Virus record (IMG/VR): IMGVR_UViG_3300025118_002664 | Location: 1-47,322 of that record | Source: a virus | Length of the DNA: 47,322 nt | Reading direction: 5' to 3' (one strand) | Shown here: piece after piece, positions 3,776 to 46,003 of the stretch | How the letters are laid out: each line of letters begins with the position of its first letter | Numbering within the stretch: position 1 is the stretch's first letter | Notes under the pieces: generated by a model | What the model was told of the DNA's origin: nothing | Database searches by the model: none | The model's input: the letters and a program-made list of their open reading frames with translations, nothing else | Translations under genes and position numbers: made by a program

Positions 3776-3783
3776 TATTTATA
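3776..3783 (+). promoter_or_regulatory. Candidate late-promoter motif (TATTTATA)
   Basis: CTATTTATA starts two bases after the helicase stop codon, 40 bases before the gp26-like start. Similar motifs precede three other genes at 31-33 bases. The exact reverse complement is the T4 late consensus TATAAATA, so polarity is uncertain, but the regular spacing upstream of + strand genes favours a sense-strand role. Confidence 0.4.
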
Positions 3784-11672: not shown

Positions 11673-12055
11673 TGTTATTTGATGTCACTATTACAAACAC
11701 AGCACCAACAATAACGGAAGTTTATAGACTGCAAGGTTATCTTCCACGATATTTTGCTGCTAGAGCAAATCGTATATATAATGAAGTATTTGAGATTTCT
11801 CGTAAAGATTATGAACGTTTCTATGACAATTCGTATGTTGTGTTAGGTCATTTGAAATGGGTTATTAAAGGTCACTTAACGGATCGTAAATTTAATTTAT
11901 ACACGGGCAATCCTACATTTGCTGGGGGTAGAGAACAAATTAATATTCCTAGCGTCTTGACACAGAACGCTGCAGCAGTTAAATTCCTTAGTAAGAGAAT
12001 ACCATATCTTGAAAATCATTTGACAAACTATCAAGAATTTTATGACGGAGTTTGA
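11672..12055 (+). CDS. Unknown small protein at the end of the tail module
   Basis: This 127-residue protein is not recognised. It is rich in Tyr, Arg and Asn (LQGYLPRYFAARANRIYNEVF), with no signal peptide or membrane segment. The start overlaps the hub gene stop (TAATG) with GGAG 8 bases upstream, and its own stop overlaps the next start (TGATG). It is therefore translated as part of the tail operon, and a minor baseplate component is the simplest guess. Confidence 0.6.
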   Translation: MLFDVTITNTAPTITEVYRLQGYLPRYFAARANRIYNEVFEISRKDYERFYDNSYVVLGHLKWVIKGHLTDRKFNLYTGNPTFAGGREQINIPSVLTQNAAAVKFLSKRIPYLENHLTNYQEFYDGV

Positions 12056-13332
12056 TGCAATTTTTAAAAGGTTATGATTTACAAACACTTCTAGCTTCTG
12101 ACGAACCCAAGGTTTGTTTGTATTTACTTTCAGATCCAGAGGCACACCCTCTCTTAAATTCTTTGTCTTGCATTTATGTTAAGACTCAAGATGGAGAATT
12201 CTATTCTTCATTTACTCATGTTGATTATCCCCACCAAGATTATCAAGGTTTGGTTCTACGAAATGCTTTTGTGTATGACATAAAGCAATTGTTACACTTG
12301 GGGTTGGATGTACAAGATTGTTTTGATTTAAAATATTTTGATAATAAGGAAGTTTACAATCAACTTTCTACATTCTATTCTGTTCGGTTGAGTCAAGTTT
12401 CTAATCTAAATTCGGTGATTCCCATTTATTCTCATTTGGATACGCTTCAACAAATTGGTCAATCGTTAGATGTTGTATTGTTAGATAAAAAGAAAGATGC
12501 TTTTGATCAGAAGTATCTAACTACATACCATAATATTATTCCTTATGTTTTTTCTAAAATAGAATCTGAAGGATTGTTTGTTGATCACGATACATTTTTG
12601 AATTCATTTGGATTGGAGAGGCGTAATTTAATTAACGATGATAGAGTTTTAACTAACTATAATCATTACACCACCACAGGCAGACCCAGTAACGCATATG
12701 GTGGAATCAATTATGCTGCTCTCAATAAGGCTGATGACTCTAGAACCTCATTTGTTTCTAGACATGAGAATGGTAAGTTAGTAAATATGGATTTTAATGG
12801 TTATCATTTATTTTTAGTTGCAGAACAGATTGGTATGGAACTTCCAGAAGACCCACATACAATGTTGGGTCAACATTATTTTAAAACAACAGAACTAACA
12901 CCGAAACAATATAATGAGTCAAAGGTAATAACTTTTAGAAATCTTTATGGATATCAGTTTGAAGATATTGTAAAAGACATTCCGTTGTTTGATAAAGTTG
13001 ATAGATTCCAAGATAAATTGTGGTCAGAGTATCAGAGTAAAGGTATGTTGATTACAGAGCTTGGCAAAAAGATTGTGGTAGAAAACGCTATACGAAATAA
13101 AGTATTTAATTATTTTGTTCAGTCGGTGGAAGCAGAAACAAATATCAAATATTTGTACAATCTTATAAAACAAGATATAGTTCCGATTCTCTATACTTAT
13201 GATTCAATGCTTTTTGATGTAGAGGAAGCTAAAATTGATAATTTAATTAATATTTTACGGGATGTATTGAAACATCCGTTTTCAATTTCTATTGGTGACA
13301 ACCTGAAAAATATGAAATTTGAACATTTTTAA
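12055..13332 (+). CDS. Divergent family A (PolA-like) DNA polymerase-related protein
   Basis: This 425-residue protein starts at the ATG overlapping the upstream stop; GGAG at 12047-12050 supports it. The C-terminal half retains the Pol I palm layout. It has a TTTGRPS turn near 206-212, motif A KLVNMDFNGYHLFLVA with Asp246 (Pol I DYSQIELR), motif B ESKVITFRNLYG with Lys290 and the final YG, a QSVEAE block near 357 aligning with the Pol I IQG-AAD helix, and motif C YTYDSMLFD with Asp383. Both metal-binding aspartates are kept. The N-terminal 120 residues resemble a decayed 3'-5' exonuclease fold (AFVYDIKQLLHLGLDV). It sits just before gp32. The phage also has a full gp43, so this is a second polymerase-like protein of unknown task. 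Confidence 0.65.
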   Translation: MQFLKGYDLQTLLASDEPKVCLYLLSDPEAHPLLNSLSCIYVKTQDGEFYSSFTHVDYPHQDYQGLVLRNAFVYDIKQLLHLGLDVQDCFDLKYFDNKEVYNQLSTFYSVRLSQVSNLNSVIPIYSHLDTLQQIGQSLDVVLLDKKKDAFDQKYLTTYHNIIPYVFSKIESEGLFVDHDTFLNSFGLERRNLINDDRVLTNYNHYTTTGRPSNAYGGINYAALNKADDSRTSFVSRHENGKLVNMDFNGYHLFLVAEQIGMELPEDPHTMLGQHYFKTTELTPKQYNESKVITFRNLYGYQFEDIVKDIPLFDKVDRFQDKLWSEYQSKGMLITELGKKIVVENAIRNKVFNYFVQSVEAETNIKYLYNLIKQDIVPILYTYDSMLFDVEEAKIDNLINILRDVLKHPFSISIGDNLKNMKFEHF

Positions 13333-13335
13333 ACC

Positions 13336-13343
13336 TATTTATA
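13336..13343 (+). promoter_or_regulatory. Candidate late-promoter motif (TATTTATA) abutting a hairpin
   Basis: CCTATTTATAG starts 3 bases after a stop codon and 32 bases before the start at 13368. If it acts as a -10-like late element, transcription would start about 6-7 bases downstream, inside the 5' arm of the hairpin at 13344-13367. Confidence 0.45.
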
Positions 13344-13367
13344 GACAATTCCAACAGAGGGATTGTC
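13344..13367 (+). promoter_or_regulatory. Ribosome-binding-site-sequestering hairpin
   Basis: The arms GACAATTCC (13344-13352) and GGGATTGTC (13359-13367) form a continuous 9-bp stem with one G-U pair and the 6-base loop AACAGA. The Shine-Dalgarno sequence (GAGGG, 13357-13361) lies in the loop and 3' arm, and the stem ends on the base before the ATG. Long transcripts should therefore translate the next gene poorly. Transcripts starting inside the 5' arm would not form the stem. Confidence 0.65.
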
Positions 13368-13799
13368 ATGGAGACACAGTTACTTTGTACTTTTTGTAAG
13401 TCAGATGAGTTGATCAAAACTTGTCAAGAGATCTCAGAAAAATATCAAGTAGTTTCAGATAAAATTTTTATTTTAGAAAATACGAAAGAAGCAGTGGACA
13501 TTTACTCTGATGATGAACAACAGTTAATTTTAACATATAATGTTACAAATGCTGATTTAAACGATGTTTTAAATTCCACAATATCCGTTCATCGTAAAAA
13601 ACAAACTAATACCATTTATACAATCAATGCTCTTAATAAATTAATCATGGAAAAGAATAATGGAATCCTAGATAAAAGATTTAGAGTTGATTGGGAAGAA
13701 TTAGAGAATATGGTTTTGGTCACCGCATATGGCAAATTGAAAAAGATACCAACACAAGTAAAACAAATTTTAAGATTAGACGAAATTACGAATACTTAA
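13368..13799 (+). CDS. Conserved T4-like phage protein of unknown function
   Basis: This 143-residue protein has the look of a conserved hypothetical of marine T4-like phages. The N-terminus LLCTFCKSDELI carries a CTFC pair, then come ISVHRKKQTNTIYTINALN and a C-terminal LDKRFRVDWEELEN block with a basic tail (GKLKKIPTQVKQIL). There is no catalytic motif. A single CxxC is not enough for a zinc site unless it dimerises. It lies between the PolA-like gene and gp32 in a region rich in regulatory signals, so a role in replication or late transcription is possible. Its translation is probably controlled by the hairpin immediately before the ATG. Confidence 0.65.
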   Translation: METQLLCTFCKSDELIKTCQEISEKYQVVSDKIFILENTKEAVDIYSDDEQQLILTYNVTNADLNDVLNSTISVHRKKQTNTIYTINALNKLIMEKNNGILDKRFRVDWEELENMVLVTAYGKLKKIPTQVKQILRLDEITNT

Positions 13800-13828: not shown

Positions 13829-13857
13829 TTGACAGTTAATACTAAACCTGTTAGATT
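13829..13857 (+). promoter_or_regulatory. Sigma70-type promoter for gp32
   Basis: TTGACA (13829-13834) and TAGATT (13852-13857) are spaced by exactly 17 bases in the 100-base gap before gp32. The leader that follows (13861-13890) is A/T-rich and unstructured and ends in AAGGAG. This resembles the T4 gp32 leader, where gp32 binds its own messenger, but autoregulation is inferred only. Confidence 0.75.
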
Positions 13858-13900: not shown

Positions 13901-14674
13901 ATGGCTCTTGACATTGCGGCACTTCGTGCCAAGTTAAACACTTTTCAGGGACAAACTAAGCGGACATCCGCTTTTTGGAGGCCGACAGAAGGCAAGTCCC
14001 AAGTAAGGATCGTTCCGTTGACGAACTGTCCCGAAAACCCCTTCAGTGAACTCTATTTCCATTATCTTGGAAACCGGAGTCACCTAAGTCCAATTTCCAA
14101 CGGTAATCGTGATCCGATTGCAGAGTTCGCGGAGAACCTTCGTGCTGAGGGAACCCGTGATGCTTATCAACAGGCTCGTGCTTTTATGCCCAAACTTCGC
14201 ACTTTCGCTCCAGTAGTGGTCCGTGGTGAAGAAGACAAGGGTGTGCGTTTTTACTCGTTTGGTAAGACTGTTTATCAAGCACTTCTTACTTACATTAACG
14301 ATCCCGACTATGGTGATATTACTCATATCGAAACTGGACGGGACATTGTAGTGGATTATACTCCACAGGAGAAGAGTGATACGAACTTCGCGAAGACAAC
14401 GATTTTGGTGAAGCCGAATCAGACTCCAGTTTCAGAGGATGCTGAGTTGGTCGAACGCTGGACAACCAAGCAACCAGATCTTAATACTCTTTTCAAGGAA
14501 CCTACTTTTGAAGAGCTGTCCGTTGTTCTAAAGCGTTACCTTGATCCTAATTCAGCGGATGAAGATACTAGTACAACTGAACAGGTAACTGCACCTGCTA
14601 CAGTACAGGCTTCGTCTGGTGGTGATAAGGTTAAGTCAGCAGTAGATGAGTTTGAGTCCCTATTTTCAGAATAA
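13901..14674 (+). CDS. 32: Single-stranded DNA-binding protein gp32
   Basis: This 257-residue gp32 homologue coats single-stranded DNA during replication and recombination. It has a short basic N-terminus (ALRAKLNTFQ), a core beginning FWRPTEGKSQVRIVPL, the FYSFGKTVYQALLTYI stretch typical of gp32 cores, a Thr/Ala-rich linker and an acidic tail DEFESLFSE, through which gp32 contacts partners. It has only one Cys (C43) and lacks the His/Cys3 zinc site of T4 gp32. It uses more G/C-ending codons than its neighbours, fitting high expression. It has its own promoter and a strong AAGGAG site, and is followed 11 bases later by uvsX. Confidence 0.85.
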   Translation: MALDIAALRAKLNTFQGQTKRTSAFWRPTEGKSQVRIVPLTNCPENPFSELYFHYLGNRSHLSPISNGNRDPIAEFAENLRAEGTRDAYQQARAFMPKLRTFAPVVVRGEEDKGVRFYSFGKTVYQALLTYINDPDYGDITHIETGRDIVVDYTPQEKSDTNFAKTTILVKPNQTPVSEDAELVERWTTKQPDLNTLFKEPTFEELSVVLKRYLDPNSADEDTSTTEQVTAPATVQASSGGDKVKSAVDEFESLFSE

Positions 14675-23519: not shown

Positions 23520-24278
23520 ATGCAGAAGTCTTCAATTGAAACGTTTATTCAAAAGTACACACTTGGTGGAGCTATTAACTCTGTAACCTTGGATTCTACA
23601 AACGGAGCACTTTCCGTAAGTGGAGTTACACAGGATATGCAGGCAATGGCTTTTGTAAAGAGTGACAAACTTTCACTTCCTAGTGGAAGGTATTCTATTT
23701 ACGATACCTCTCAACTTCGTTCGTTGTTGGGAGTGTTTGGTCAGTCAGATGATATTAATGTGAACGTGGAAACATCACAGGATGTTCCAGTTGCGTTACA
23801 GATAGATGATCATCCATTTAATACTAAAGTAAAGTTTGTATTATCTGATCCACAAGTCATACCAGATGCACCCACAATTACCACTTTACCAGATTTTAAT
23901 TTGACAATTCCGTTTGATGAAGAATTTATGTCTCGTTTTGTTAAGGCAACATCTGCTCTTTCAGAAGTGGATACATTTACTATAATATCGGGAACACAAC
24001 AGGCAGATGGTCATACTTCTAACGCCGACACCACATTGGTTATTGGATATACAGATATGAATACAACTCGTATTTCTCTTGGAGTAGAGTCATTTGGCGG
24101 CCTTGAAAAGAAATTAACTTTTTCTGCCAGGTATTTGAAAGATATATTTTTGGCTAATAAAACAGCGAAGACAGGAAATATTGAGGTTTCCAACAGTGGT
24201 CTTCTTTCTATTAAGTTTGATGATGGGGGTTTTATTTCTGAGTATTATCTTGTTAAAATTAGTAATATTGTAATCTAA
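23520..24278 (+). CDS. 45: Sliding clamp gp45 (DNA polymerase processivity factor)
   Basis: This 252-residue clamp subunit is expected to trimerise around DNA and tether gp43; in T4 it also activates late transcription. Recognisable family features are the N-terminal KSSIETFIQKY helix, FVKSDKL, the YSIYDTSQLRSLLGVF interdomain stretch and the C-terminal block FSARYLKDIFLANK followed by EVSNSGLLSIKF and EYYLV. T4 gp45 is 228 residues, so this is slightly longer. GAGG precedes the ATG. Its stop overlaps the next start (TAATG), coupling it to the DruA-like gene. Confidence 0.9.
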   Translation: MQKSSIETFIQKYTLGGAINSVTLDSTNGALSVSGVTQDMQAMAFVKSDKLSLPSGRYSIYDTSQLRSLLGVFGQSDDINVNVETSQDVPVALQIDDHPFNTKVKFVLSDPQVIPDAPTITTLPDFNLTIPFDEEFMSRFVKATSALSEVDTFTIISGTQQADGHTSNADTTLVIGYTDMNTTRISLGVESFGGLEKKLTFSARYLKDIFLANKTAKTGNIEVSNSGLLSIKFDDGGFISEYYLVKISNIVI

Positions 24279-25642
24279 TGATTAGATCTGTAATAGACCA
24301 CGATGTTGTTGATATGTTCTTTCAGAACAGTACAGCATTTGATTTTCATAAGGATAAGGAATCTCTTATTAAACATATGGCTTCTTTGAAGACACAAGGT
24401 GTTGAAGAATCTACACTTTATAAAAAGTGGGTAGAATTAAAACAACTTGACAATACTAAAGAAGTTGTATCTACTGGTGCTCTTATGGGCAGATTGTGGA
24501 CTCCTACTGATATCTTTGATAAAGAAAGAACCATTGAGGAAATTGACAATCTGAAACCACAGGTTGTTATTTGTAAAGAAGGAACCACCGATTACGATGA
24601 TTGGAAGTATTTGAGAATGTTAATCTCAAGCTTTGAGTTTTCTATTGGTATTGGTAGACTTATTAAAATCTTGATTCTAGATGAAAACACTGGTAAAGTT
24701 CTTGGAGTGTCTTCTATTGCTTCTGACGTTATTTCTATTGGAGTTAGAGATAATTGGATCGGGTGGACTAAAGAAGATAAGTTTGAAAAGAGTAAGTTGA
24801 ATCAAACTTGTATTGGTTCTACGATTGTACCAACACAACCATTTGGTTATAACTTTCTTGGTGGTAAATTAATTGCTTCTCTTCTTTGTACTAATGATGT
24901 TCGTGATGCTTGGGAAAATAAGTTTGATCAGAAGTTAGTAGGAATGACAACAACTTCTTTATATGGTGGTCATTCTATGTACCAAAGAATTCCTTTCTGG
25001 AAAGAACTTGGTCGAACTACAGGACGGATTCTTCTTAAACCAGACGATGAACATTTTGAAAAGTGGTCAAAGTGGTTGAAAGAAAATCATCTTCAAGAAT
25101 ATGAACATGCAAGTTGTGGTAAAGCTGGAACGGTTTCTAAACAAAATGATAAGTGGGTATGGACATTTCAAGATACAATCCGTGAACATGCTGACACTAG
25201 AGATGAACTTGTTGATGAATTAGCTAAACAACGGTTTTCTGTCCACGACACTAATATTGTCCACGATCTTCGTAGTAAGTTAGTTCATCCACCCTCCGGT
25301 CCAAAACAAAATGTACTTAATAGAATTTATAGTCACCTTGGTATGAAGTCTTCTGATTATGTTCATGGTTTTAAAAGAGGAGTTTATTTTGCTCCGTTCT
25401 ATGAAAACACCAGAGAATATTTGAGAAGTGAGATTGAAGAATCGGAATTGATTGGTTCAAAGAAATTGGAAAATGATGTTGATGATGTAATGGATTGGTG
25501 GAAACCCAAAGCAATTAGACGGTATACCAACCTTCTTGAACAAGATAGAATAAGACCAGAACATCTTTATTATCGTGATATGATTCAAATGAGAACGTGG
25601 GAAGAAGTACAACAAAAATATATGTCTCAGGTAGGAAGATAA
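24278..25642 (+). CDS. DruA-like (DUF4338) protein in the clamp operon
   Basis: This 454-residue protein has a core (about 125-250) matching DUF4338, the family of Druantia defence protein DruA. It shows GRLIKILILD, KVLGVSSIASD, VRDNWIGWTKED, a LGGKLIASLLCTNDVRDAW block, then VGMTTTSLYGGHSMYQR and LGRTTG, in the same order as in DruA proteins. The C-terminal 200 residues are charged and less familiar, with W/K-rich pieces (EKWSKWLKENH, DWWKPKAIRRYTNLLE). The biochemical activity of DruA is not known to me. Because it lies between clamp and clamp loader and is translationally coupled to gp45, a DNA-replication or DNA-protection role is inferred instead of classical defence. No druB-E partners are present. 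Confidence 0.75.
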   Translation: MIRSVIDHDVVDMFFQNSTAFDFHKDKESLIKHMASLKTQGVEESTLYKKWVELKQLDNTKEVVSTGALMGRLWTPTDIFDKERTIEEIDNLKPQVVICKEGTTDYDDWKYLRMLISSFEFSIGIGRLIKILILDENTGKVLGVSSIASDVISIGVRDNWIGWTKEDKFEKSKLNQTCIGSTIVPTQPFGYNFLGGKLIASLLCTNDVRDAWENKFDQKLVGMTTTSLYGGHSMYQRIPFWKELGRTTGRILLKPDDEHFEKWSKWLKENHLQEYEHASCGKAGTVSKQNDKWVWTFQDTIREHADTRDELVDELAKQRFSVHDTNIVHDLRSKLVHPPSGPKQNVLNRIYSHLGMKSSDYVHGFKRGVYFAPFYENTREYLRSEIEESELIGSKKLENDVDDVMDWWKPKAIRRYTNLLEQDRIRPEHLYYRDMIQMRTWEEVQQKYMSQVGR

Positions 25643-28914: not shown

Positions 28915-28922
28915 TATTTATG
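28915..28922 (+). promoter_or_regulatory. Candidate late-promoter motif (TATTTATG)
   Basis: ATATTTATG overlaps the end of the nuclease stop region and lies 33 bases before the next start, the same spacing as at 13336 and 29515. The last base differs from TATTTATA. Confidence 0.3.
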
Positions 28923-29514: not shown

Positions 29515-29522
29515 TATTTATT
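29515..29522 (+). promoter_or_regulatory. Candidate late-promoter motif (TATTTATT) before the sugar island
   Basis: ACTATTTATTAAAA lies 31 bases before the first glycosyltransferase gene in a 64-base gap. It matches the CTATTTAT core of the other three sites and is the only recognisable signal ahead of the 16-kb cluster. Confidence 0.4.
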
Positions 29523-29545: not shown

Positions 29546-30952
29546 ATGAAGCATAAATGGTTACCTAAAGAAGAAAGAAAGACTATGTTATTCCTTTCGG
29601 ATGACATGCGCATACCCTCCGGCATTGGTACAATGACCCGTGAAATAATAGAGGGAACTTGTCATCGTTACAATTGGGTTCAGTTGGGAGCAGCTATCAC
29701 CCATCCAGAGGCTGGATCAGTTATTGATGTATCTGAAGATATCCACAATACAACTGGAGTAGAAGATCCATCTATAACAATTTATCCATATAACGGTTAT
29801 GGCGATCAGTTTATTCTTAGAAGATTACTACATGAACATGGCCCATCTGCCATCCTTCACTTCACCGATCCTAGATATTGGCATTGGCTTTATAGTATGG
29901 AGAATGAAGTTCGTCAGAACACTCCTATTTTCTTTTATACGATTTGGGACGATCTTCCCTATCCATATTATAATGAAAACTTTTATCGTTCTTGTGATTG
30001 GTTGGGTTGTATTTCTAAACAAACATATAATATTGTAAAACAAGTTCGTGCTCGTAAAGAACCTGTAGAAGATTGGCAACTTTCTTATGTTCCTCATGGA
30101 ATTAATCCAAACAAGTTTTATAGGATTAAAGAAGAAGATGAGGAACATGAGGCGATTGTTGATATGAAAACTAAACTTTTTGGGGATAAAGAATATAAGT
30201 TTGTAGTTTTTTATAATTCACGAAACATTCGTAGAAAGATGACAAGTGATATTATGATGGCGTTTAGTCAGTTTAGAGATCAGTTACCGGATGATGAGAA
30301 AGATGATGTTGTTTTGTTATTTCACACCGAACCTTCTGATGAAAATGGAACTGATTTAAGAGCGGTTCATCGTGATTTGTTTCCAGATATTAATTTGATA
30401 TTCACAGAAAGTAAATTTGAACAAGATGGAATTAATGGTCTTTATAATATTTCAGATGTTACAATTAACATTTCAAGTAATGAGGGTTTTGGTTTGAGTG
30501 TGGCAGAAAGTCTTATGGCCGAAACTCCTGTGATTGTAAATGTTACAGGAGGTCTTCAAGATCAATGTGGGTTCCGTGATGCAGAAGGTAACCTTCTAGA
30601 TCCTGACATACATTATACATTTGAACAGGGATCTAATCATAATGGTAAATATAGAGATCATGGTGAGTGGGTGGTTCCGGTGTTCCCTTCTGCTATAAAC
30701 ATTGTGGGTTCACCTGTTACTCCGTATATTTTTGATGACCGTTGTGCTATACCAGATGTTACTCAGGCCATAATGACATGGTATCAGAGAGGCGATGAGA
30801 AGAGAAGAAAAGCAGGATTAGCTGGTAAGGAATTTTGTTTAGGTGAGGGCGGACTTAACTCAGAGAATATGTGTAATTTGTTTATTGAAAATATGGATAT
30901 AGCTATGACAAACTTTAAACCAAGACAACGATTTTTCTTGGAGGCAGTATAA
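29546..30952 (+). CDS. Glycosyltransferase, GT4-like (GT-B fold)
   Basis: This 468-residue enzyme is predicted to transfer a sugar from a nucleotide donor. The N-terminal part has FLSDDMRIPSGIGTMTREII, the acceptor-side Gly-rich loop of GT4 enzymes. The linker VPHGINPNKF is the typical VxNGVD-like block, and the C-terminal half has SSNEGFGLSVAESLMAETPVI, the EGFGL...EAxAxGxPVI donor-binding signature. It is the first gene of the long sugar operon, with GAGG upstream, and its stop overlaps the next start. Acceptor and donor cannot be told from sequence. Confidence 0.85.
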   Translation: MKHKWLPKEERKTMLFLSDDMRIPSGIGTMTREIIEGTCHRYNWVQLGAAITHPEAGSVIDVSEDIHNTTGVEDPSITIYPYNGYGDQFILRRLLHEHGPSAILHFTDPRYWHWLYSMENEVRQNTPIFFYTIWDDLPYPYYNENFYRSCDWLGCISKQTYNIVKQVRARKEPVEDWQLSYVPHGINPNKFYRIKEEDEEHEAIVDMKTKLFGDKEYKFVVFYNSRNIRRKMTSDIMMAFSQFRDQLPDDEKDDVVLLFHTEPSDENGTDLRAVHRDLFPDINLIFTESKFEQDGINGLYNISDVTINISSNEGFGLSVAESLMAETPVIVNVTGGLQDQCGFRDAEGNLLDPDIHYTFEQGSNHNGKYRDHGEWVVPVFPSAINIVGSPVTPYIFDDRCAIPDVTQAIMTWYQRGDEKRRKAGLAGKEFCLGEGGLNSENMCNLFIENMDIAMTNFKPRQRFFLEAV

Positions 30953-32382
30953 TGGATAGGCCAAGAACCCCAGAAGTTCTATCTCAATTGTATCGGCCCT
31001 TATGTGTAGTGCGGGCTCCCATAGCTACTCGTTCTGGATACGGAGGAATGAGTAGAGATATTGTACGACATCTTATTGAGTATGACAAATATAATGTTGA
31101 AATTCATTCAATTAATTGGGGTCAAACTCCTATGAATGCTTTGGATGTTAATAATCCTGCTGATAAAATGATACTTGAAAGAATTGTTCCCGAAGAGTTT
31201 CCAGTTCAACCTGACTTATATATTTCTATTTCAATTCCTACTGAGTTTAATCCAGTGGGAAAATATAATATTGGAATTACAGCTGGAATTGAAACTACTC
31301 AGGCTTCGGTTGAATGGGTTGAGGCGATGAATCGGATGGATGTGAATTTTGTAATATCTGAACACGCTAAGGCCGTTTTTGATACATCAAAGTATCAAGC
31401 TCATAATGAACAGGGAGAACAAGTTGGAGTGGTGGAATGTCTCAAACCTATTGAAGTTTTACATAATTGTATAGACACCTACATTTATAAAAAAATAAAT
31501 CGATCTCAACTGAAATCCTCTGTAAAAAGTATGATAGATACGATACCAGAGAAATATAATTATATGTTTGTTGGACATTGGTTAAAAGGTGATGTGGGAC
31601 AAGATAGAAAAAATGTTGGTCTTTTAGTTAAAATATTTTATGAACTGTTTAAGAAAGATGAATTTGACAGTTCCCAGTGGGGTGGTCGGCCTGGACTTAT
31701 TTTAAAAACAGGTGAAGTGGATTCTTCTATTATAGATCGTGAAAAAACTCTATCTAAACTGAAACAAATTAAAGAGTCGGTGGAGCTTGAAGAAGGTGAG
31801 TCTTTGCCAAATGTTTATCTTGTTCATGGAGATCTGACTGATGAGGAATTGAGTTCTCTCTATAATCACAATAAGGTAAAGACTCACATTACCTTTACCA
31901 AGGGTGAAGGATTTGGTCGCCCCCTTCTTGAAGCTTCATTAACTGGTAAACCTATTATTGCGCCGGGGTGGTCAGGCCATATGGATTTTTTAAATCCACA
32001 ACAAGCCATCTTGTTAGGCGGTGGGTTAGAAGATATTCATCCATCTGCGTTCTATGATAATATTATTATTGAGGGAGCAAAATGGATGCAAGTAGATCCA
32101 AACATGGCCGCTACTGGTATGGCAGAAGCCTTTCAGAATTATAAACCGTGGCGTGCTAAAGCAAATAAGTTGGCTAAAGCTAATAAAGATAATTTTAATT
32201 ATAAAAGGATTAGATCAGATATGTGGAAGTTGCTTGATCAATATGTTCCAGAATTTGAGGAACCACCAGAACAGAAGATGGAATTAGAATTAAATTTACC
32301 TTCATTGACAAAGGTGAAAGAACAAGATCCAATTAATGTTCCAGAAATTAAATTACCCAAATTACTGAAGGTAGAAAAATGA
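30952..32382 (+). CDS. Glycosyltransferase, GT4-like (GT-B fold)
   Basis: This second GT-B enzyme has 476 residues. It shows ATRSGYGGMSRDIVRHLIEY near the N-terminus, IEVLHNCIDTYIY in the linker, YMFVGHWLKGDVGQDRKN at the start of the donor domain and KGEGFGRPLLEASLTGKPII as the donor-binding signature. The C-terminal 40 residues are Lys/Pro-rich and probably disordered. It overlaps the previous stop (TAATG) and the next start (ATGA), so it is translated with its neighbours. It and the preceding enzyme are related and may have arisen by duplication. Confidence 0.85.
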   Translation: MDRPRTPEVLSQLYRPLCVVRAPIATRSGYGGMSRDIVRHLIEYDKYNVEIHSINWGQTPMNALDVNNPADKMILERIVPEEFPVQPDLYISISIPTEFNPVGKYNIGITAGIETTQASVEWVEAMNRMDVNFVISEHAKAVFDTSKYQAHNEQGEQVGVVECLKPIEVLHNCIDTYIYKKINRSQLKSSVKSMIDTIPEKYNYMFVGHWLKGDVGQDRKNVGLLVKIFYELFKKDEFDSSQWGGRPGLILKTGEVDSSIIDREKTLSKLKQIKESVELEEGESLPNVYLVHGDLTDEELSSLYNHNKVKTHITFTKGEGFGRPLLEASLTGKPIIAPGWSGHMDFLNPQQAILLGGGLEDIHPSAFYDNIIIEGAKWMQVDPNMAATGMAEAFQNYKPWRAKANKLAKANKDNFNYKRIRSDMWKLLDQYVPEFEEPPEQKMELELNLPSLTKVKEQDPINVPEIKLPKLLKVEK

Positions 32383-33590
32383 AGATAAGTTTTATTGTGC
32401 CAAGTTATAATAATTTAAGATATTTGAAAAATGCATATCATAGTATTAGAACTTGGGAAAGTGAAGAACATGAAATTGTTATACTAGATGATGCTAGTGT
32501 AGATGGAACAGCTGAATGGTTGGATTCCTTAAATGATCCTAATTTAATAATTTGGAAAAACGAAACTGGAAAACGGATGGGTCACACTATTACATATGAT
32601 ATTGGAGTAAATCTTTCTACAAATGATATCTTTGGTATTTTTCATGCTGATATGTTTCTGGGTGAAAACTATGTAAAAAATATAGTTAAACATTTAGAAC
32701 GCGGAAAGGTAGTAACAGCTACTAGGGTTGAACCTCCGTTGCATCCAAGTGGTAGAGAAAAAATAACAAGAGACTTTGGTGTATGGCCAGAAGATTTTAG
32801 AGAAGATGACTTTATTAAGTTTGTGAGAGAGGAACAGGAGAGAAGTAAAGATCAAATTACCAAGGGTATCTTTGCTCCTTGGTATATGTATAAGGAAGAT
32901 TATTTAAAAATTGGTGGACATGATCATCTTTTCGCTCCATTTCCATATGAAGACAGTGATATCTTTCAGAGATTTCTTTTGGCTGGATATGAAGTTTTAC
33001 AGTCTAGAGATGCACTTGTTTATCATTTGACATGTCGTGGTCATAAGTGGACCGATGATGATATTATTGGGAAGGTAGATGATGATTTTGAGGAGTTAGA
33101 AGTGAATGCTAGAAAAAACTTCATTCGTAAGTGGAATTCTTGGATTATGAATGATGAGTGGATGCATCCAATTATGATTCCAAAGTATAATACTTGTTTA
33201 ATTGCAGATAATGTTGAGAGTGTTGAACAATTAGATAATTTAGAACCTTGGTTTTGCCATACAGTAATCGATTCATTTGATTTGGTTGCACAGTATTTGT
33301 ATAGAGAACAACCAAATACCACTTTGGATATGTCAGAACGTATTTCTAGTAAAGAAACGGAAGAATATTCTAATTATGGTGTAAAGATTTATATTGATTT
33401 ACATCAATTGACTCCCGACGAGTATGGTAATCTTGGAAAAATGAATTTAATTTTAGATCAATTAAATAAGAATGGGTCACTTCAATTAAATTTAAGTGGT
33501 GAATATCAACTTGGAAATATAAAAGTTCAGGTAGATTCGTTAGATAATATTGTAGATGGTCTAATCATGGCAGAACCTTATAATGAATAA
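32379..33590 (+). CDS. Glycosyltransferase family 2 (GT-A fold)
   Basis: This 403-residue protein has a GT2 domain in residues 1-220: SFIVPSYNNLRYLKNAYHSI, IVILDDASVDGTAEWL, and FGIFHADMFLG with the DxD-like metal site, then APFPYEDSDIFQRFLLAGY with the ED catalytic base. The C-terminal 180 residues contain a separate acidic beta-rich domain of unknown role (SRDALVYH onward). It would add a sugar to a growing glycan. It overlaps both neighbours by 4-8 bases. Confidence 0.8.
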   Translation: MKISFIVPSYNNLRYLKNAYHSIRTWESEEHEIVILDDASVDGTAEWLDSLNDPNLIIWKNETGKRMGHTITYDIGVNLSTNDIFGIFHADMFLGENYVKNIVKHLERGKVVTATRVEPPLHPSGREKITRDFGVWPEDFREDDFIKFVREEQERSKDQITKGIFAPWYMYKEDYLKIGGHDHLFAPFPYEDSDIFQRFLLAGYEVLQSRDALVYHLTCRGHKWTDDDIIGKVDDDFEELEVNARKNFIRKWNSWIMNDEWMHPIMIPKYNTCLIADNVESVEQLDNLEPWFCHTVIDSFDLVAQYLYREQPNTTLDMSERISSKETEEYSNYGVKIYIDLHQLTPDEYGNLGKMNLILDQLNKNGSLQLNLSGEYQLGNIKVQVDSLDNIVDGLIMAEPYNE

Positions 33591-34617
33591 AAGAGTTTTA
33601 ATTACTGGTGGTGCTGGTTTTATAGGACACACATTAATACATAACATTTTAAAACAAACCAATTGGGATGTTGTTACCATAGATAGATTGGATTATTCTG
33701 GAAACTTAAATCGTTTAGATGATATTTTAGGTGACATTCCCAAGGAAGAAAAACATAGGCTTGATATTATTTTTCACGATCTCCGTGCTGAATTGAATTC
33801 ACAAATTTGTGCTGCTATTGGCGAGGTTGATTACATTTTACACTTGGCCGCATCAAGTCACGTTGATAGAAGTATTGATCATCCAATGGAATTTGTTATG
33901 GATAATGTTGTTGGTACTTGTAATATTTTAAACTTTGCAAGAGATCAACAAAATCTATCTAGGTTCATTTATTTTAGTACAGACGAAGTATTTGGTCCAG
34001 CCCCAGAAGGTATCAGTTATGCAGAACGTGACAGATATAATTCAACAAATCCATATTCTGCTACTAAGGCTGGGGCCGAAGAACTGTGTGTTTCATATGA
34101 AAACTCATATGGTATGCCAATTTATATCACCCATACTATGAATGTATTTGGTAATAGGCAACACCCAGAAAAATATATTCCATCTACAATTAGAAAAGTT
34201 CGTGATGGAAAGCTTGTTACTATTCACAGTGACGCAACGAAGATTACGGCAGGAAGCCGACATTATATTCATACTAGTGATGTGTCTGAAGCTATTCTAT
34301 TCTTATTGAGATTATCCGATGAAGGTCATGTATTTAATACTGATTTTGGCAATGCCAAGTGTCCTAAGTTTAATCTTACTGGTAAGGAAGAGGTTGATAA
34401 TTTGGAATTGGCTAGAAGAATTGCTAGGGCTGTTGGTGAAGAATTGAAATATGAGATGATTGATTATCATTCCGCTAGGCCAGGGCACGATTTAAGATAT
34501 GCCATTAGTGGTGATTACATGAAAGAACTTGGGTGGGAACCTCTTGTGTCTTTGAATGAAAGGATTCAACAGGTGGTAGAGTGGTCCCTTGAGAATGACA
34601 GGTGGTTAAAAACATAA
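33583..34617 (+). CDS. rmlB: dTDP-glucose 4,6-dehydratase-like (RmlB)
   Basis: This 344-residue extended short-chain dehydrogenase has the NAD-binding GGAGFIGHTLI near the N-terminus, IDRLDYSGNLNRL, HLAASSHVDRSIDHP, the STDEVFGP block with catalytic Asp/Glu, and YSATKAGAEELC with the Tyr-x3-Lys pair. These are diagnostic for RmlB-type dehydratases, which make dTDP-4-keto-6-deoxyglucose. RmlC- and RmlD-like genes follow within 5 kb, but no RmlA nucleotidyltransferase is seen in the window. The host would have to supply dTDP-glucose. Confidence 0.85.
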   Translation: MNKRVLITGGAGFIGHTLIHNILKQTNWDVVTIDRLDYSGNLNRLDDILGDIPKEEKHRLDIIFHDLRAELNSQICAAIGEVDYILHLAASSHVDRSIDHPMEFVMDNVVGTCNILNFARDQQNLSRFIYFSTDEVFGPAPEGISYAERDRYNSTNPYSATKAGAEELCVSYENSYGMPIYITHTMNVFGNRQHPEKYIPSTIRKVRDGKLVTIHSDATKITAGSRHYIHTSDVSEAILFLLRLSDEGHVFNTDFGNAKCPKFNLTGKEEVDNLELARRIARAVGEELKYEMIDYHSARPGHDLRYAISGDYMKELGWEPLVSLNERIQQVVEWSLENDRWLKT

Positions 34618-35375
34618 TGTCTATTCTAGTTGCTACAATGAATGTCAACCAACCAGAGTTGACAAATAATTTGGTGGAACAAGTTTCTAAGAATACAGAA
34701 GTTGAACACGAAATTATGGTTCTTGAAAATGGAGCTACAGAACCATCAAGTTATTCTACACACAGAACTGAACAGAACTGTTTCTTCGGTGGTGGTTTAA
34801 ATTTAATATTTGATTATTATCTTAATCAAACAGATCACGATTGGTTGATGGTTTTAAATAATGATTTGATTATTCATGGTGATAATTTTCTATCTATAAT
34901 GTTAAGTGAAGCTGAAGAAAATGATATGTGTCAATTATCTCCAGCTATCATTAATGCTTCAGTACCACAATGTTTTTGGAAACAAATGCACATGTGGATG
35001 TCAGGTGGAACCAGATCGGTAGAGTGGATTGATTTTCAAGCCCCGATGTTACGAAGAGATATATGTGATCTTATTAAAGTGTATCCATCTGAATTGCTTT
35101 ATGGGTGGGGTAATGATGTTTTAACAGGCATGATTGCTAAACAACAGGGTTTGAAAACGGGCGTCACTGATAAGTGTTGTATAGCTCATTTAAATTCACA
35201 AACTCTTAATAAAGGCATTGAAGACCTAGAAGGAAAGACACTTAGTAATCAAGAGTATTGTGCTCGGGCGGAACAAGGCATGATGGGTTATATGCAACTT
35301 GATCCCGAACGGTGGGAGGTGTTCCAATCATTTAGACACAATGCAGCGAATTATAATTATGGAGTTTTTAAATGA
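34617..35375 (+). CDS. Glycosyltransferase-like protein (GT-A type)
   Basis: This 252-residue protein starts at the ATG overlapping the rmlB stop (TAATG). It has a GT-A layout: ILVATMNVNQPELTNNLV, IMVLENGATEPSSY, FFGGGLNLIFDYYL, then DWLMVLNNDLIIHG with the D-x-D-like metal site, and YGWGNDVLTGMIAKQQG in the catalytic region. It is related to family 2 rhamnosyltransferase-like enzymes. The acceptor is unknown. Translationally coupled to both neighbours. Confidence 0.7.
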   Translation: MSILVATMNVNQPELTNNLVEQVSKNTEVEHEIMVLENGATEPSSYSTHRTEQNCFFGGGLNLIFDYYLNQTDHDWLMVLNNDLIIHGDNFLSIMLSEAEENDMCQLSPAIINASVPQCFWKQMHMWMSGGTRSVEWIDFQAPMLRRDICDLIKVYPSELLYGWGNDVLTGMIAKQQGLKTGVTDKCCIAHLNSQTLNKGIEDLEGKTLSNQEYCARAEQGMMGYMQLDPERWEVFQSFRHNAANYNYGVFK

Positions 35376-36241
35376 TGACGTTTTGTATTTCTACGTTTAA
35401 TAACTTAGAATATCTTAAGATAGCTGTTGATTCTGTCCGAACCAATAGTCATTACAATGATGCCCCATTTATAATACATGCTGAGAATTGTGAGGATGGA
35501 ACAGATGAGTGGTTAAAAGAACACGCCAAAGAATATGATTTAGAATATTATATAGACAAAAACGATGTCCCGCTGGGCATTGGTGGTGGTATGAACTTTT
35601 GTGCAGAAAGAGTTAAGACCGAATATATAATGTTCCTACATTCAGATTTTTATGTAACCAAGGATTGGGATCTAGCTTTACTACAAGTTTTTGAACAGTA
35701 TCCAGACGAACAGCTTTGGGTTAATTCTCATAGAGTAGAACCTAAAATGTCCACTCCCACCGATGTAGCATACACTCTTTGGGATGGTGATGCCAGTTAT
35801 AGGTATGGCACCGTGATCGTTCCGAAGGATACATTTGGTGCATACCACCACGATTTTCGGAAGGATGAATTTGAACAGTGGGCAAGGGAATTTACAGAGA
35901 TGAATAATTTTCATGTTGCAAAGGGAGAAGGTGTAAGTGGTTTGATTAGAAAATGTGATTGGGACGAGATTGGAGGAAACGATCCGTTGTTTGCTCCGGC
36001 GAGTTTTGAGGACATAGATTTGTTTTTACGAATGTTACAGGCTGGATTTAGATTTGTATTACCATCAACTTCTGTGGTGTGGCACTTTGGTGCACGGGGA
36101 AGTCATAGATTGGAAGAAAATGATGGACGGCCGTGGATACGTCAAATAGAATCTGAAACAAATAATCAACGCAAGTGGGTACAGAAGTGGGGATCGATGC
36201 CAAAATTTGATAAACATGGAATGGTTTGTGGACTTAAATGA
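35372..36241 (+). CDS. Glycosyltransferase family 2
   Basis: This 289-residue GT-A enzyme shows FCISTFNNLEYLKIAVDSVR, DGTDEWLKEHAKEYDLEY, PLGIGGGMNFCAERVK, YIMFLHSDFYV with HSD in place of DxD, and FAPASFEDIDLFLRMLQAGF with the catalytic ED. It resembles the GT2 domain at 32379 in several blocks, including the closing VVWHFGARGSHRLEE. It overlaps the previous gene by 4 bases and the next by 4. Confidence 0.8.
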   Translation: MMTFCISTFNNLEYLKIAVDSVRTNSHYNDAPFIIHAENCEDGTDEWLKEHAKEYDLEYYIDKNDVPLGIGGGMNFCAERVKTEYIMFLHSDFYVTKDWDLALLQVFEQYPDEQLWVNSHRVEPKMSTPTDVAYTLWDGDASYRYGTVIVPKDTFGAYHHDFRKDEFEQWAREFTEMNNFHVAKGEGVSGLIRKCDWDEIGGNDPLFAPASFEDIDLFLRMLQAGFRFVLPSTSVVWHFGARGSHRLEENDGRPWIRQIESETNNQRKWVQKWGSMPKFDKHGMVCGLK

Positions 36242-37113
36242 CGAGAGAAATAAAATTAGTAACTAACTGTGAACGACCACCAAACTGGTTAATGGACATT
36301 GCGGTTCATCATTGGTTAGAGAGTGGATTTAAGCCAGAAAATTTAGTATTTTTAGTAAACAACATATCTCATTTTGATTTGGTAGAAGCATTAAAGGAAC
36401 GATATGATATAGATGCAGTCCGTGTTTATTCACCAGATGACATATATAATAAAAATCAATGTGTGGTGTGGTATGATCTTGAAGAATATGATTACGGACG
36501 GTACCATGATGTTGAACATGAGATAATAAATGATGTCCAACATCGTTTGTTGGAAGCGGGAGTTGATGTTGTAGTCTTTTTAGATAGAGATGAATTACTT
36601 TGGCACGAAGATGGTATACTGAATCTATTAAATACTTTTGAAGAACCCATTATTAGGCCAAGAGGCATTGAAGTAATACAGACGGGTGATGAAGGCCCAC
36701 TTGATTTGAGTAAATCAATTGCTGAACAACGAAAATTTTGTAGGTGGTTTCCATCCAAGAGCAAGGCGTGTATAACAAGGATACCTGTTGATTGGATAAT
36801 TGGAAGACATGGTACAAAGTGTGGACGCTGGCCTCATGCTGATGCACACTATCATCCAGAACTCCAATGGAACCCAGATGCTGATATAAGTGAATACCCC
36901 GGCTTATATCTTGTTCATTTTGATAAAGTGGATATGAATATGTTATATGATTTGAGAATGGAAAGTCAACGAATATTTAAAACGAATGATAGACACACGG
37001 GTGTCATTGATGAAAAAGGATATACTGAATGGTTTACAGAAGCACATACAGAGGCCATTCCCGAAAGACAACTATACGATTGTGGTGATTTCTTATACAA
37101 GGTGGAGGTTTAA
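36238..37113 (+). CDS. Glycosyltransferase-like protein (LDRDE-type)
   Basis: This 291-residue protein is probably a GT-A glycosyltransferase related to family 92/Glyco_tranf_2_4 enzymes. It has KLVTNCERPPNWLMDIAVHHW at the start, DVVVFLDRDELLWHEDG with an Asp-rich metal site, and the conserved HADAHYHPE and YLVHFDKVDM blocks further on. The His-rich middle part is typical of these families. The donor and acceptor are unknown. ATGA overlap upstream and TAATG overlap downstream. Confidence 0.6.
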   Translation: MTREIKLVTNCERPPNWLMDIAVHHWLESGFKPENLVFLVNNISHFDLVEALKERYDIDAVRVYSPDDIYNKNQCVVWYDLEEYDYGRYHDVEHEIINDVQHRLLEAGVDVVVFLDRDELLWHEDGILNLLNTFEEPIIRPRGIEVIQTGDEGPLDLSKSIAEQRKFCRWFPSKSKACITRIPVDWIIGRHGTKCGRWPHADAHYHPELQWNPDADISEYPGLYLVHFDKVDMNMLYDLRMESQRIFKTNDRHTGVIDEKGYTEWFTEAHTEAIPERQLYDCGDFLYKVEV

Positions 37114-37658
37114 TGAAAATTGTAGAAACTATATTTGAAGATGCAAAGTTATTTTATCCAAAAGTTTATGCTGATGAGAGGGGATTCTTTACAGAATCAT
37201 ATAATCATATAATTCAAGATGAACTTGGTGAAACATTTATACAAGATAATCATTCAAAATCAAAAGCTGGAGTTATCAGAGGATTACATTATCAATGGGA
37301 TCGCCCAATGGGAAAACTTTTGAGAGTTGTGAAGGGAAGTGGATTTGATACGATTGTTGATATTAGAAAAGACTCACCAACATATGGTGTACACTCAACC
37401 TTTATGTTATCAGAAGATAATTTTGCAATGCTTTGGGCGCCGCCGGGGTTTGCTCAAGCATTTCTAGCTTTGGAAGATGATACTCATTTGTGTTATAAGA
37501 CCACAGCACTACACAATGGTGACGCTGAAGGTGCAATACATCCAACAAATTCTGGTTTAGATATTGACTGGCAGGTTCCAAACGATTATATTATATTGTC
37601 AGAGAAAGATACTACAGCACAAACATTTGCTGAGTATGATGAAAACCCAAGGTTTTAA
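37113..37658 (+). CDS. rmlC: dTDP-4-dehydrorhamnose 3,5-epimerase-like (RmlC)
   Basis: This 181-residue cupin-fold epimerase has ADERGFFTESY near the N-terminus, GVIRGLHYQ with catalytic His59, KLLRVVKGSGFDTIVDIRKDSPTYG, and HLCYKTT with the catalytic Tyr128. The usual PGFAHGF block reads PPGFAQAF, so a conserved His near the active site is replaced by Gln. A changed substrate preference is possible. It acts after RmlB on 4-keto-6-deoxy sugars. GGAGG precedes the ATG, which overlaps the upstream stop. Confidence 0.85.
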   Translation: MKIVETIFEDAKLFYPKVYADERGFFTESYNHIIQDELGETFIQDNHSKSKAGVIRGLHYQWDRPMGKLLRVVKGSGFDTIVDIRKDSPTYGVHSTFMLSEDNFAMLWAPPGFAQAFLALEDDTHLCYKTTALHNGDAEGAIHPTNSGLDIDWQVPNDYIILSEKDTTAQTFAEYDENPRF

Positions 37659-38645
37659 ATGGATAGAATTAGAAAGTTATTTGTAGCAGGTGGTGCTGGT
37701 TATATCGGTACAAGACTTTGCAATCTATTGGCTGGTTCTGGAGATCACGAACCAGATTACGAGGTAACGGTTTTTGATCAGTTTTGGTTTGGTGATAGTT
37801 TAGACGATAGGATAACCAAGATTAAAGGTGACATACTTGATCTGAAATCAAGTGACTTGGTAGGATATGATGCTGTTATATTTTTGGCAGGACTATCCAA
37901 CGATCCAATGGTAGCTTACAGGCCCGATTTAAATTTTATTCAAAACAGTGCAGCGCCCACTTATTTGGCATATATTACGAAACAAGCCCAGATTAGAAGG
38001 TTTATAGGGGCAAGTTCGTGTAGTGTATATGGACATACAGAGAATAAAACACTCACAGAAACTAGTACAGTTAAACCGACATACCCATATGGTATCTCAA
38101 AACTTCAATGTGAAAGAGGTATCATGTTGTTGGAAGATGATAACTTCAAACCTATATTGTTTAGGAAGGGTACTGTTGGTGGTTGGTCAGAGAGAATGAG
38201 ATATGATTTGGTTGTGAATACAATGTTGATGACTGCCTTTACAAAAAGAAAGATAACTGTAAATAGTCCACAACTTTGGCGACCGCTGTTAGATATTAGA
38301 GATGCGATCCAAGGATACTGGTTAGCAATAGATTTGTTTCCAGATTCAAAAATTTCTGGAGTATATAATTTATCTGGAGGAAATTATACAATAGGTGAAC
38401 TTGGAAAAATTATCTATGATACTTTGTCTGAGAGAGGTTATGATATAGAATTGGAATACTTGGATGTACAAGACATTAGAAATTATAAAGTTGACATAAC
38501 AAAGATAGAGGAAGAATTGAATTACGCACCACGGTTTACACCAACAGGTACCGTTCAAGAGATATTGGAAAATATTAATTTAGATGAGTATGATTTCTCA
38601 GATGACAAATATTATAATATAAACGTATTTAAAAAGGTAATGTAA
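37659..38645 (+). CDS. NAD-dependent sugar epimerase/dehydratase (extended SDR)
   Basis: This 328-residue protein has the NAD-binding GGAGYIGTRLCNLL, FLAGLSNDPMVAYRPD, the catalytic SSCSVYGHTE Ser, and YPYGISKLQCERG with the Tyr-x3-Lys pair. It belongs to the GalE/WcaG type of nucleotide-sugar epimerases and dehydratases. The exact substrate cannot be read by eye. It follows RmlC directly, so a dTDP- or GDP-keto sugar is likely. Confidence 0.8.
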   Translation: MDRIRKLFVAGGAGYIGTRLCNLLAGSGDHEPDYEVTVFDQFWFGDSLDDRITKIKGDILDLKSSDLVGYDAVIFLAGLSNDPMVAYRPDLNFIQNSAAPTYLAYITKQAQIRRFIGASSCSVYGHTENKTLTETSTVKPTYPYGISKLQCERGIMLLEDDNFKPILFRKGTVGGWSERMRYDLVVNTMLMTAFTKRKITVNSPQLWRPLLDIRDAIQGYWLAIDLFPDSKISGVYNLSGGNYTIGELGKIIYDTLSERGYDIELEYLDVQDIRNYKVDITKIEEELNYAPRFTPTGTVQEILENINLDEYDFSDDKYYNINVFKKVM

Positions 38646-39352
38646 TGAATGTATTTTTGACAGGCGGTTCTGGATTACTTGGGAAACAATTGGTGAATGA
38701 ATTAGACAAGAGGGGTGTTAGACACCACAGTCCCACACATACAGCGTTTAATGTTATTGAACAACGTCTTGGCGATGTGATACTTTGGGGTGGCTTTAAA
38801 CCCGATGTAGTAATCCACTGTGCTGCGGTTGCAAGATACAGGGATGTGGAAAAAGATATTGGAAAAGCGTTGGGAACCAATGTTATAGGAACCTGTCATT
38901 TGATTCGGGAATGTATTCAACATGATATAAGAATGGTTTATATATCAACGGATCATGTATTTGATGGTTTAGATGGGCCATATGGTGTTGGTGATAAGAT
39001 AAATCCAATTACCAAATATGCTAAAACTAAAGCGGCCGGTGAATTGGCAGTAAGAACATACGATAATTCATTGGTAATTAGAACTTCTTTTTGTCCATCT
39101 GAGTTTATGTTTGATACGGCATATACTGACAAGTGGACATCTCAGGATTATGTAGATAAGGTTGCTCCAAAAATACTTGATAAATGTTTGAGTGATCAAG
39201 TAGGAGTATGTCATGTCGGACATCCTAGAAGATCTTTTTATGACCTAGCGGTAGAAAGACATCCAGATATAAAGAAGGGAAGTGTTGCCGAGATAATGAA
39301 GACTTCAAAGGTACCCATACTAATAGATACTAGTTTAGGAGATATTATATGA
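38645..39352 (+). CDS. RmlD-like sugar-nucleotide reductase (short form)
   Basis: This 235-residue protein of the RmlD substrate-binding family shows GGSGLLGKQLVNEL, DVVIHCAAVARYRDVE, VYISTDHVFDG, and the KYAKTKAAGELAVRTY catalytic Lys region. RmlD is usually about 290 residues, so the C-terminal substrate domain is short. It would reduce a 4-keto-6-deoxysugar to rhamnose or a related sugar. GMD-type products are an alternative substrate, given the gmd gene 6 kb downstream. Confidence 0.7.
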   Translation: MNVFLTGGSGLLGKQLVNELDKRGVRHHSPTHTAFNVIEQRLGDVILWGGFKPDVVIHCAAVARYRDVEKDIGKALGTNVIGTCHLIRECIQHDIRMVYISTDHVFDGLDGPYGVGDKINPITKYAKTKAAGELAVRTYDNSLVIRTSFCPSEFMFDTAYTDKWTSQDYVDKVAPKILDKCLSDQVGVCHVGHPRRSFYDLAVERHPDIKKGSVAEIMKTSKVPILIDTSLGDII

Positions 39353-40116
39353 ATGGGATCTTTTTTAAAGATTTATTGAATGAACTGAACAATCTTAAGA
39401 ATCAAGGTGTGGTTGGTATAAAACAATCGTTCGAAGATGAAGGTGTGATTTTGGATGATTTAATTACAATGAGAAGATTGACTGATTTGTCTGGAGTGTA
39501 TCTTAGTGTAAAGATCGGCGGGTGTGAGGCTATAACAGATATTAATTTATCTCAACAGGTTGGGGTTGATGGTGTTGTAGCACCAATGATTGAATCACAG
39601 TTTGCTTTACAAAAATATATTGAAATTGTTAAAGATTTAAAAGATATCAAATTGTATGTAAATATAGAAAGTAGACAGGCTTATAATAATTTGGATTCTA
39701 TATTGTCAAGTCCATCTTCAAAGTTGCTTTGTGGTGTAGTTGTTGGTAGATCCGATTTGACCAAATCTTATGGTCATGGAAAAGATTATGTAGACTCAAA
39801 AGAAATGCAAAATATTGTTTATGATGTTATGTCCAAATGTAAAGAATATGATATGATAACTCTTATGGGTGGAAATATTTCTAACAAGAGTGTTGGTTTT
39901 ATAAAAAAATTATTTGAAGAAAAGTTGTTGGATTATATCGAGACAAGAAATGTTATAATGAAACTAACGGATAGTAGTGTTAATAACTTAAATGGTTTGG
40001 TTAAATCTGCTCTTTTATTTGAATCTCTTTGGTTAAAGTTCAAAGCAAATAAGTATAAAAAAATATCAGATGAATATATGTTAAGATCAAATACTATTAA
40101 TGATAGATTGTTATGA
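39349..40116 (+). CDS. HpcH/HpaI aldolase-like protein
   Basis: This 255-residue TIM-barrel protein is related to HpcH/HpaI aldolases and citrate lyase beta subunits. It contains YLSVKIGGCEAITDI, GVDGVVAPMIESQFALQKYIE, YVNIESRQAYNNL and VVVGRSDLTKSYG, which hold the acidic metal and pyruvate/acyl-binding residues of the family (Glu in MIES and NIES). It overlaps the next gene, an LdpA-like 4Fe-4S protein, by 4 bases. Family members cleave or join pyruvate-type units, so making a sugar acid is a possible role. The activity is not proven by sequence. Confidence 0.65.
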   Translation: MNGIFFKDLLNELNNLKNQGVVGIKQSFEDEGVILDDLITMRRLTDLSGVYLSVKIGGCEAITDINLSQQVGVDGVVAPMIESQFALQKYIEIVKDLKDIKLYVNIESRQAYNNLDSILSSPSSKLLCGVVVGRSDLTKSYGHGKDYVDSKEMQNIVYDVMSKCKEYDMITLMGGNISNKSVGFIKKLFEEKLLDYIETRNVIMKLTDSSVNNLNGLVKSALLFESLWLKFKANKYKKISDEYMLRSNTINDRLL

Positions 40117-44947: not shown

Positions 44948-44957
44948 GAGAAGGATT

Positions 44958-45977: not shown

Positions 45978-46003
45978 ACAACTACACTAGGATAGGAAAT
46001 AGA

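Follow-up and report, generated by a model that had tools for sequence, protein, structure and literature searches.

In this study, we provide evidence that the leader of a gene for a 143-aa protein, located in the T4-like replication module of a 47,322-nt fragment of a virus record (the whole stretch analysed, hereafter the window), is probably a timing switch of the kind known from the T4 genes e, 49 and I-TevI, in which a late promoter adjoins a hairpin over the ribosome binding site (RBS), and that the 143-aa protein is probably made only from late messages. Transcripts coming from the upstream genes would carry the whole hairpin, in which the Shine-Dalgarno (SD) region is paired along with, in the case of the window, part of the start codon, and the computed energies suggest that the 30S subunit would be barred from loading on such long transcripts. 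Later in infection, RNA polymerase with a phage gp55-type sigma may initiate about 6 nt past the TATTTATA motif, inside or just beyond the 5' arm, and the resulting short transcripts, without most of that arm, would be translatable. In most relatives the motif is itself the 5' arm, so that one sequence would act both as DNA promoter and as RNA anti-SD strand.

Read-through over the 143-aa gene is likely because the co-directional PolA-like gene ends only 35 nt upstream. Since a baseplate operon that has its own copy of TATTTATA is among the genes upstream of the leader in the window, read-through transcripts need not be early. The initial annotation had proposed a block of early read-through; its occluding stem over the RBS holds, but the upstream late baseplate operon could also feed blocked transcripts.

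Leader of the 143-aa gene

The 35 nt between the PolA-like stop and the ATG leave room for both a motif and a stem (Table 1). As had been described in the initial annotation, TATTTATA ends on the base before a stem of nine pairs, one of them G-U. GAGGG had been regarded as hidden in this stem, and this applies to GGG, but GA lies in the loop, so that most of the SD is covered; in the minimum free energy structure, UUUAU of the motif pairs in addition with AUGGA at the start codon.

Table 1. Positions of the leader elements, the neighbouring genes and the related motifs in the window
Feature	Position	Strand	Basis
Predicted late promoter (-10-like) motif of the clade, TATTTATA	13336..13343	+	sequence; TATTTAT enrichment in relatives
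5' arm of the RBS hairpin, GACAATTCC	13344..13352	+	sequence and fold
Zone in which late transcription is predicted to start (about 13349 with the T4 spacing)	13347..13353	+	inferred from T4 geometry, modelled
Hairpin loop AACAGA	13353..13358	+	fold
SD-like GAGGG, 6 nt before the ATG	13357..13361	+	sequence
3' arm of the hairpin, GGGATTGTC; last base adjoins the ATG	13359..13367	+	sequence and fold
Gene for the 143-aa protein; conserved core TISVHRKKQTNTIYTINALNKLI	13368..13799	+	homology searches, predicted model
PolA-like (DNA_pol_A) gene, upstream conserved neighbour	12052..13332	+	Pfam DNA_pol_A E 1e-5, below cut-off
gp32-like single-strand DNA-binding protein gene, downstream conserved neighbour	13901..14674	+	PHROG 1192 E 2e-18
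Sigma70-like promoter (TTGACA-17-TAGATT) belonging to the gp32-like gene; lies outside the hairpin	13829..13857	+	promoter scan
Second TATTTATA, without a blocking hairpin; 40 nt ahead of the baseplate-hub start codon at 3816	3776..3783	+	motif scan; hub gene PHROG 150 E 3e-19
Motif of the same class, TATTTATG, before the gene at 28948	28915..28922	+	motif scan
Motif of the same class, TATTTATT, before the gene at 29546	29515..29522	+	motif scan

Taken alone, a stem of at least 9 bp is not unusual in the window, where 15 such stems with loops of 4-10 nt were found versus 11.8 expected under a Markov model (only about 1.5 expected with at least four G/C in an arm), and the 71-nt fold at the leader has a z of -1.75. 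What does stand out is the energy needed to open the RBS: it amounts to 13.4 kcal/mol, whereas dinucleotide-shuffled versions of the leader average 5.6, and 1 shuffle in 100 came out as high (z 3.5). The single-genome case is weak, and it is the comparative evidence that carries the argument. A terminator reading was rejected, as the stem is not followed by a U-run and is absent from the terminator scan, and an Rfam search at the leader returned no family, only a sub-threshold match.

The exact T4 late consensus TATAAATA shows no enrichment in the window and occurs at the 13336 site on the minus strand only, so that the leader carries no T4 late promoter in the strict sense on its coding strand. 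The plus-strand motif is two changes away from this consensus, and the label "late-promoter-like" given in the initial annotation consequently needed independent support, which came from the relatives.

The 143-aa protein and its neighbours

The replication module of the window comprises the genes for the PolA-like protein, the 143-aa protein, the gp32-like single-strand DNA-binding protein, UvsX, an exonuclease, a gp41-like helicase and a dUTPase, and continues with gp43, a PCNA-like gene, gp44 and gp62. The order around the leader is conserved, with gp32 downstream in 79 of 79 readable close loci and the PolA-like gene upstream in 74 of the 75 loci with room for it. Searches of the 143-aa protein against PHROGs, Pfam and PDB sequences gave no usable family. 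Its N-terminal half is predicted to be ferredoxin/ACT/RRM-like, and a fold search with the model returned weak, common ferredoxin-like matches (best Z 5.7) plus one uncultured-phage relative. An identity with T4 gp33, gp59 or RegA is unsupported by profile similarity, the hhalign probabilities being 0.3%, 0.3% and 0.1%, respectively.

Farther along in the replication module of the window, a 454-aa protein (24278-25642) matching Pfam DruA (PF14236, E 3e-27) is encoded between the PCNA-like and gp44-like clamp loader genes; DruA is a component of the Druantia anti-phage system. After the replication module, about 16 kb (29546-46000) are occupied by sugar-nucleotide/glycosyltransferase-like genes, all on the plus strand, as judged from their translations.

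Relatives and compensatory change in the stem

A blastn search of the region against phage records found nothing, and tblastn was needed to reach homologues in Flavobacterium phage immuto, Microcystis phage Mel-JY01 and an uncultured 484-kb phage. One search gave 133 close relatives of the 143-aa protein, and a profile search of IMG/VR gave at least 595. We compared 79 related leaders (at least 50% protein identity), 43 of which were distinct. TA(T/C)TTAT together with a stem occluding the RBS is present in all distinct leaders except two, L012, which has the motif without a clear block, and L043, which has no motif; the motif alone is present in every distinct leader but L043, and where there is a stem over the RBS it lies in or abuts the 5' arm. 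In the window clade and a second clade (that of L008) the stem begins directly after the motif, and their sequences differ with the pairing kept, whereas in most other leaders it is the motif that supplies the 5' arm and base-pairs with the SD, as in GTAATATTTATTAAGAG...CTCTTAATGGATGTTAC. Neither the length nor the sequence of the loop is conserved, stem sequence varies freely outside the promoter motif, and stem stability differs widely among relatives.

Covariation was assessed in 22 alignable leaders of one architecture, in which the motif is the 5' arm; the window and L008 clades have another stem at the same site. RNAalifold found 13 pairs in these leaders, 6 of them with compensatory (two-sided) changes. 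When the cells of the named structure were counted, 92.3% were paired versus 44-50% with slid partners, 34 cells were two-sided versus 9.7 in shuffles, and the covariation score was 0.418 versus 0.260 (0 of 500 shuffles as high). An independent, hand-anchored alignment of 29 leaders gave 81% paired in register versus 40-50% when slid, with a total of 437 versus a maximum of 430 in 2000 permutations. Position 3 of the motif is itself a varying pair, T standing opposite A or G, and C opposite G. The stem is thus conserved in relatives through compensatory change, whereas the initial annotation had named a lack of such conservation as grounds for refuting it, and the structure covering the RBS is real.

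More distant homologues often lack the motif or have the motif without a hairpin, and many lack both. Mel-JY01 keeps the hairpin, yet its conserved stem stops just before the SD; immuto has the motif without a hairpin, LR756508 has neither, and several distant homologues abut or overlap the upstream ORF. The earlier suggestion that the 143-aa protein is needed only late would accordingly apply, at best, to the present clade. Other hairpins over motif and RBS were seen in two distant homologues (L196:1970-2001 and L208:1964-2001), possibly independent origins of the switch. In the immuto-like branch (L083:1346-1415; L152, L154, L160, L163 and similar loci), the 143-aa homologue has an apparent N-terminal extension with a recurrent F-x-Y-D-x-(E/D), and in immuto TATTTATA stands a few nucleotides ahead of the annotated ATG of this homologue.

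A candidate late promoter and late sigma factor

An unbiased analysis of 7-mers enriched upstream of genes placed TATTTAT at the top in the relative G004, in Mel-JY01 (1-50 kb) and in immuto, and among the top few in four further relatives (G001, G002, G010 and G008), with counts of 14 versus 0.4 expected in G004, 17 versus 0.9 in G001, 11 versus 0.5 in Mel-JY01 (1-50 kb) and 24 versus 0.7 in immuto. When T4 was analysed in this way, the top 7-mer was ATAAATA, known as the core of the late promoter in that phage. The strand bias of TATTTAT is strong in several large relatives (for example 30 to 7, 3 to 29 and 36 to 9). The clade consensus is (A/C)TATTTAT(A/T); 79 motif sites lie mostly 30-44 nt before the ATG and have no -35 element. 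The motif precedes the terminase gene, the next gene (in portal position) and the tail-tube genes in Mel-JY01, and genes for tail tube, baseplate hub, neck and virion proteins in metagenomic phages; other genes, gp32 among them, are preceded by sigma70-like promoters of the early type. The motif is more than a part of the RNA structure, because distant homologues can have it at the same distance without any hairpin. None of the papers searched joins "late promoter" with "TATTTAT". Taken together, TATTTATA/TATTTAT behaves as the late promoter of the clade and is a candidate for that activity, and the late-promoter-like label has found its support in the enrichment before late genes. An early doubt, drawn from the lack of exact TATAAATA enrichment in the window, was dropped, the clade using TATTTAT instead.

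A weak gp55 match in phage immuto (E 0.008) led to a conserved protein of 240-256 aa encoded by Mel-JY01, immuto, G001 and G004 (L215:1495-2232, L216:1459-2220, L214:1462-2232 and L213:1501-2220). Its predicted model, of moderate confidence (mean pLDDT 69), has the fold of sigma domain 2 and matches almost only sigma factors; one of the top matches is the gp55 chain of the T4 open complex (7d7c_F; Z 10.8, 111 residues, rmsd 5.6). Sequence comparison does not place the protein in the gp55 family, a direct hhalign to the T4 protein being weak (E 0.011, probability 3.9%). The gp55 models phrog_234 and phrog_12791 had no convincing match among the relatives, nor had the PHROGs models of gp33, so that no recognisable gp33 was seen; a Sigma70_r2 family search in the relatives was negative or weak, and no such candidate was found in the 164-kb record G002. 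The immuto copy is annotated as a hypothetical protein and has no significant PHROGs match. We therefore regard this divergent protein as a gp55-like candidate for the late sigma of the clade.

Opening of the RBS on early and late RNA

In the window and in the relatives, the SD and/or the start codon is paired in a stable stem on the long transcript, and the opening cost of the RBS in 33 of 40 leaders exceeds at least 95% of dinucleotide shuffles. Among relatives, the median cost falls from about 11 kcal/mol on early RNA to about 3-4 on late RNA starting 3-10 nt past the motif, and the exact start within this range has little effect on the late-RNA value. The expectation that a late transcript would leave the site free agrees with the computed energies in most relatives, but the late RNA of the window clade can refold with codons 2-13 (-9.2 kcal/mol), giving an opening cost of about 9 versus 13 kcal/mol. 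The window is the least clean case, its late RNA being only partly relieved by prediction.

The difference in opening cost between early and late RNA was then scanned over the motif-bearing genes of each record (5-17 per record). The 143-aa gene ranked first in G001, G004, G010, G008 and the window, and second in G002. On about 150 kb of T4 the five highest-ranking genes were I-TevI, 49, e, segB and I-TevII; since it puts the documented hairpin-controlled genes of T4 first, the scan is able to detect the known mechanism, and it does so at the 143-aa gene as well. With compensatory change in the stem, a motif behaving as a late promoter and a drop of the opening cost in relatives, the regulatory logic of T4 e, soc and 49 that had been assigned to this leader is supported. 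A second leader with a promoter within a hairpin, GGTAATGATACTTATATAAAGATTCATTACC, was seen in G001 (L093:5060-5115), where it precedes the gene for a virion structural protein of 453 aa (phrog_1645) and represents the same design in an independent instance.

Alternative explanations

The hairpin might serve for insulation rather than timing, blocking any polycistronic read-through, RNA of the late baseplate operon included, with the dosage of the protein set by its own promoter. The nearest upstream late-class motif in promoter position in the window is that of the baseplate-hub gene, from which all genes up to 13332 are co-directional, and sigma70-like sites in the window are not clearly in excess of shuffles (70 versus 59.7, sd 7.3), as such a reading would have it. 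However, the PolA-like and gp32-like genes on either side belong to replication, and with a sigma70-like promoter in front of gp32 the region is probably crossed by early or middle transcripts too; we consider insulation unlikely, though it and timing are not mutually exclusive. A fuller reading adds to the timing switch that promoter and translational block constrain each other's evolution throughout the lineage, the transcribed late promoter being the anti-SD strand and a divergent gp55-type sigma reading TATTTATA, and that the hairpin also binds the 143-aa protein; taken as a whole, this combination is improbable. An autogenous operator, at which the 143-aa protein would bind the hairpin at its own RBS and repress its own translation, the promoter motif being incidental to the stem, is in our judgement quite improbable: the hairpin retained by Mel-JY01 with the SD outside the stem, and a predicted N-terminal fold of a type common in nucleic-acid-binding proteins (on the weak matches given above), speak for it, but loop or bulge bases should then have been kept, whereas here the loop is not conserved and the stem is free to vary, the conserved bases are those of a promoter motif found genome-wide, and hhalign to T4 RegA finds nothing.

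An RNA thermometer of the fourU-like kind, with a U-rich AUUUAU strand pairing the SD and melting with temperature, could be suspected from the UAUUUAU of relatives, which pairs AUGGAUG or AUGAGUA with G-U pairs. The U-rich strand is nevertheless the promoter motif of the clade and lies upstream of many genes without hairpins, and the stability of the stem varies widely between relatives, which makes a thermometer very unlikely. A chance stem without function at the leader would agree with the ordinary frequency of such stems and the modest fold z in the window, but it is opposed by compensatory changes across many distinct leaders, by the different stems that the window and L008 clades have at this position, and by the RBS opening cost relative to shuffles, and it appears extremely improbable. 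The late-promoter/hairpin timing switch is the reading we favour.

Comparison with known systems

The timing trick of e, soc, 49 and I-TevI has been described for T4 and its close relatives. The present analysis points to such a switch in a clade that is much larger and for the most part uncultured, where it would act on a widely conserved gene beside gp32 and where covariation in many lineages serves as evidence. The clade thereby gains candidates for a late promoter (TATTTATA) and for a late sigma, by which the genes of many uncultured phages might be assigned to temporal classes on the basis of sequence. The 143-aa protein is also marked out as a product for which synthesis at the wrong time may be of consequence.

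In T4 e, 49 and I-TevI, as well as soc, segB, I-TevII and mobE of Aeh1, the RBS lies in a hairpin on long transcripts, and the hairpin genes of T4 have a late promoter immediately upstream, in the DNA encoding the 5' strand, from which a late transcript without that strand arises (PMC3014915, PMC2988022). The leader described here resembles e, 49 and I-TevI in the pairing of the RBS on long RNA and in the late motif at the 5' strand, as judged from sequence and computed energies. It differs in concerning an uncharacterised gene between PolA-like and gp32-like genes in a distant phage clade, in having TATTTATA in place of TATAAATA, and in that the window clade keeps an alternative RBS structure in the late RNA.

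Late promoters of the T4 type, read by the sigma gp55, have the sequence TATAAATA in T4 and NATAAATA in cyanophage S-PM2 (PMC2988020, PMC2984593). The motif of the clade shares with them a single -10-like AT box without a -35 element before late genes, together with an encoded gp55-like fold, whereas its consensus differs from that of T4 at two central bases, the gp55-like protein is only remotely similar and a gp33 is not recognisable. An RNA structure at a translation start in the replication module also recalls the T4 gp43, RegA and gp32 translational operators, but the loop carries no conserved or protein-binding signature and the 143-aa protein is not detectably RegA or gp33. The switch is thus ordinary in kind, and what is new is the gene, the clade and the promoter sequence in which a late-promoter/RBS-hairpin switch of the T4 style is met.
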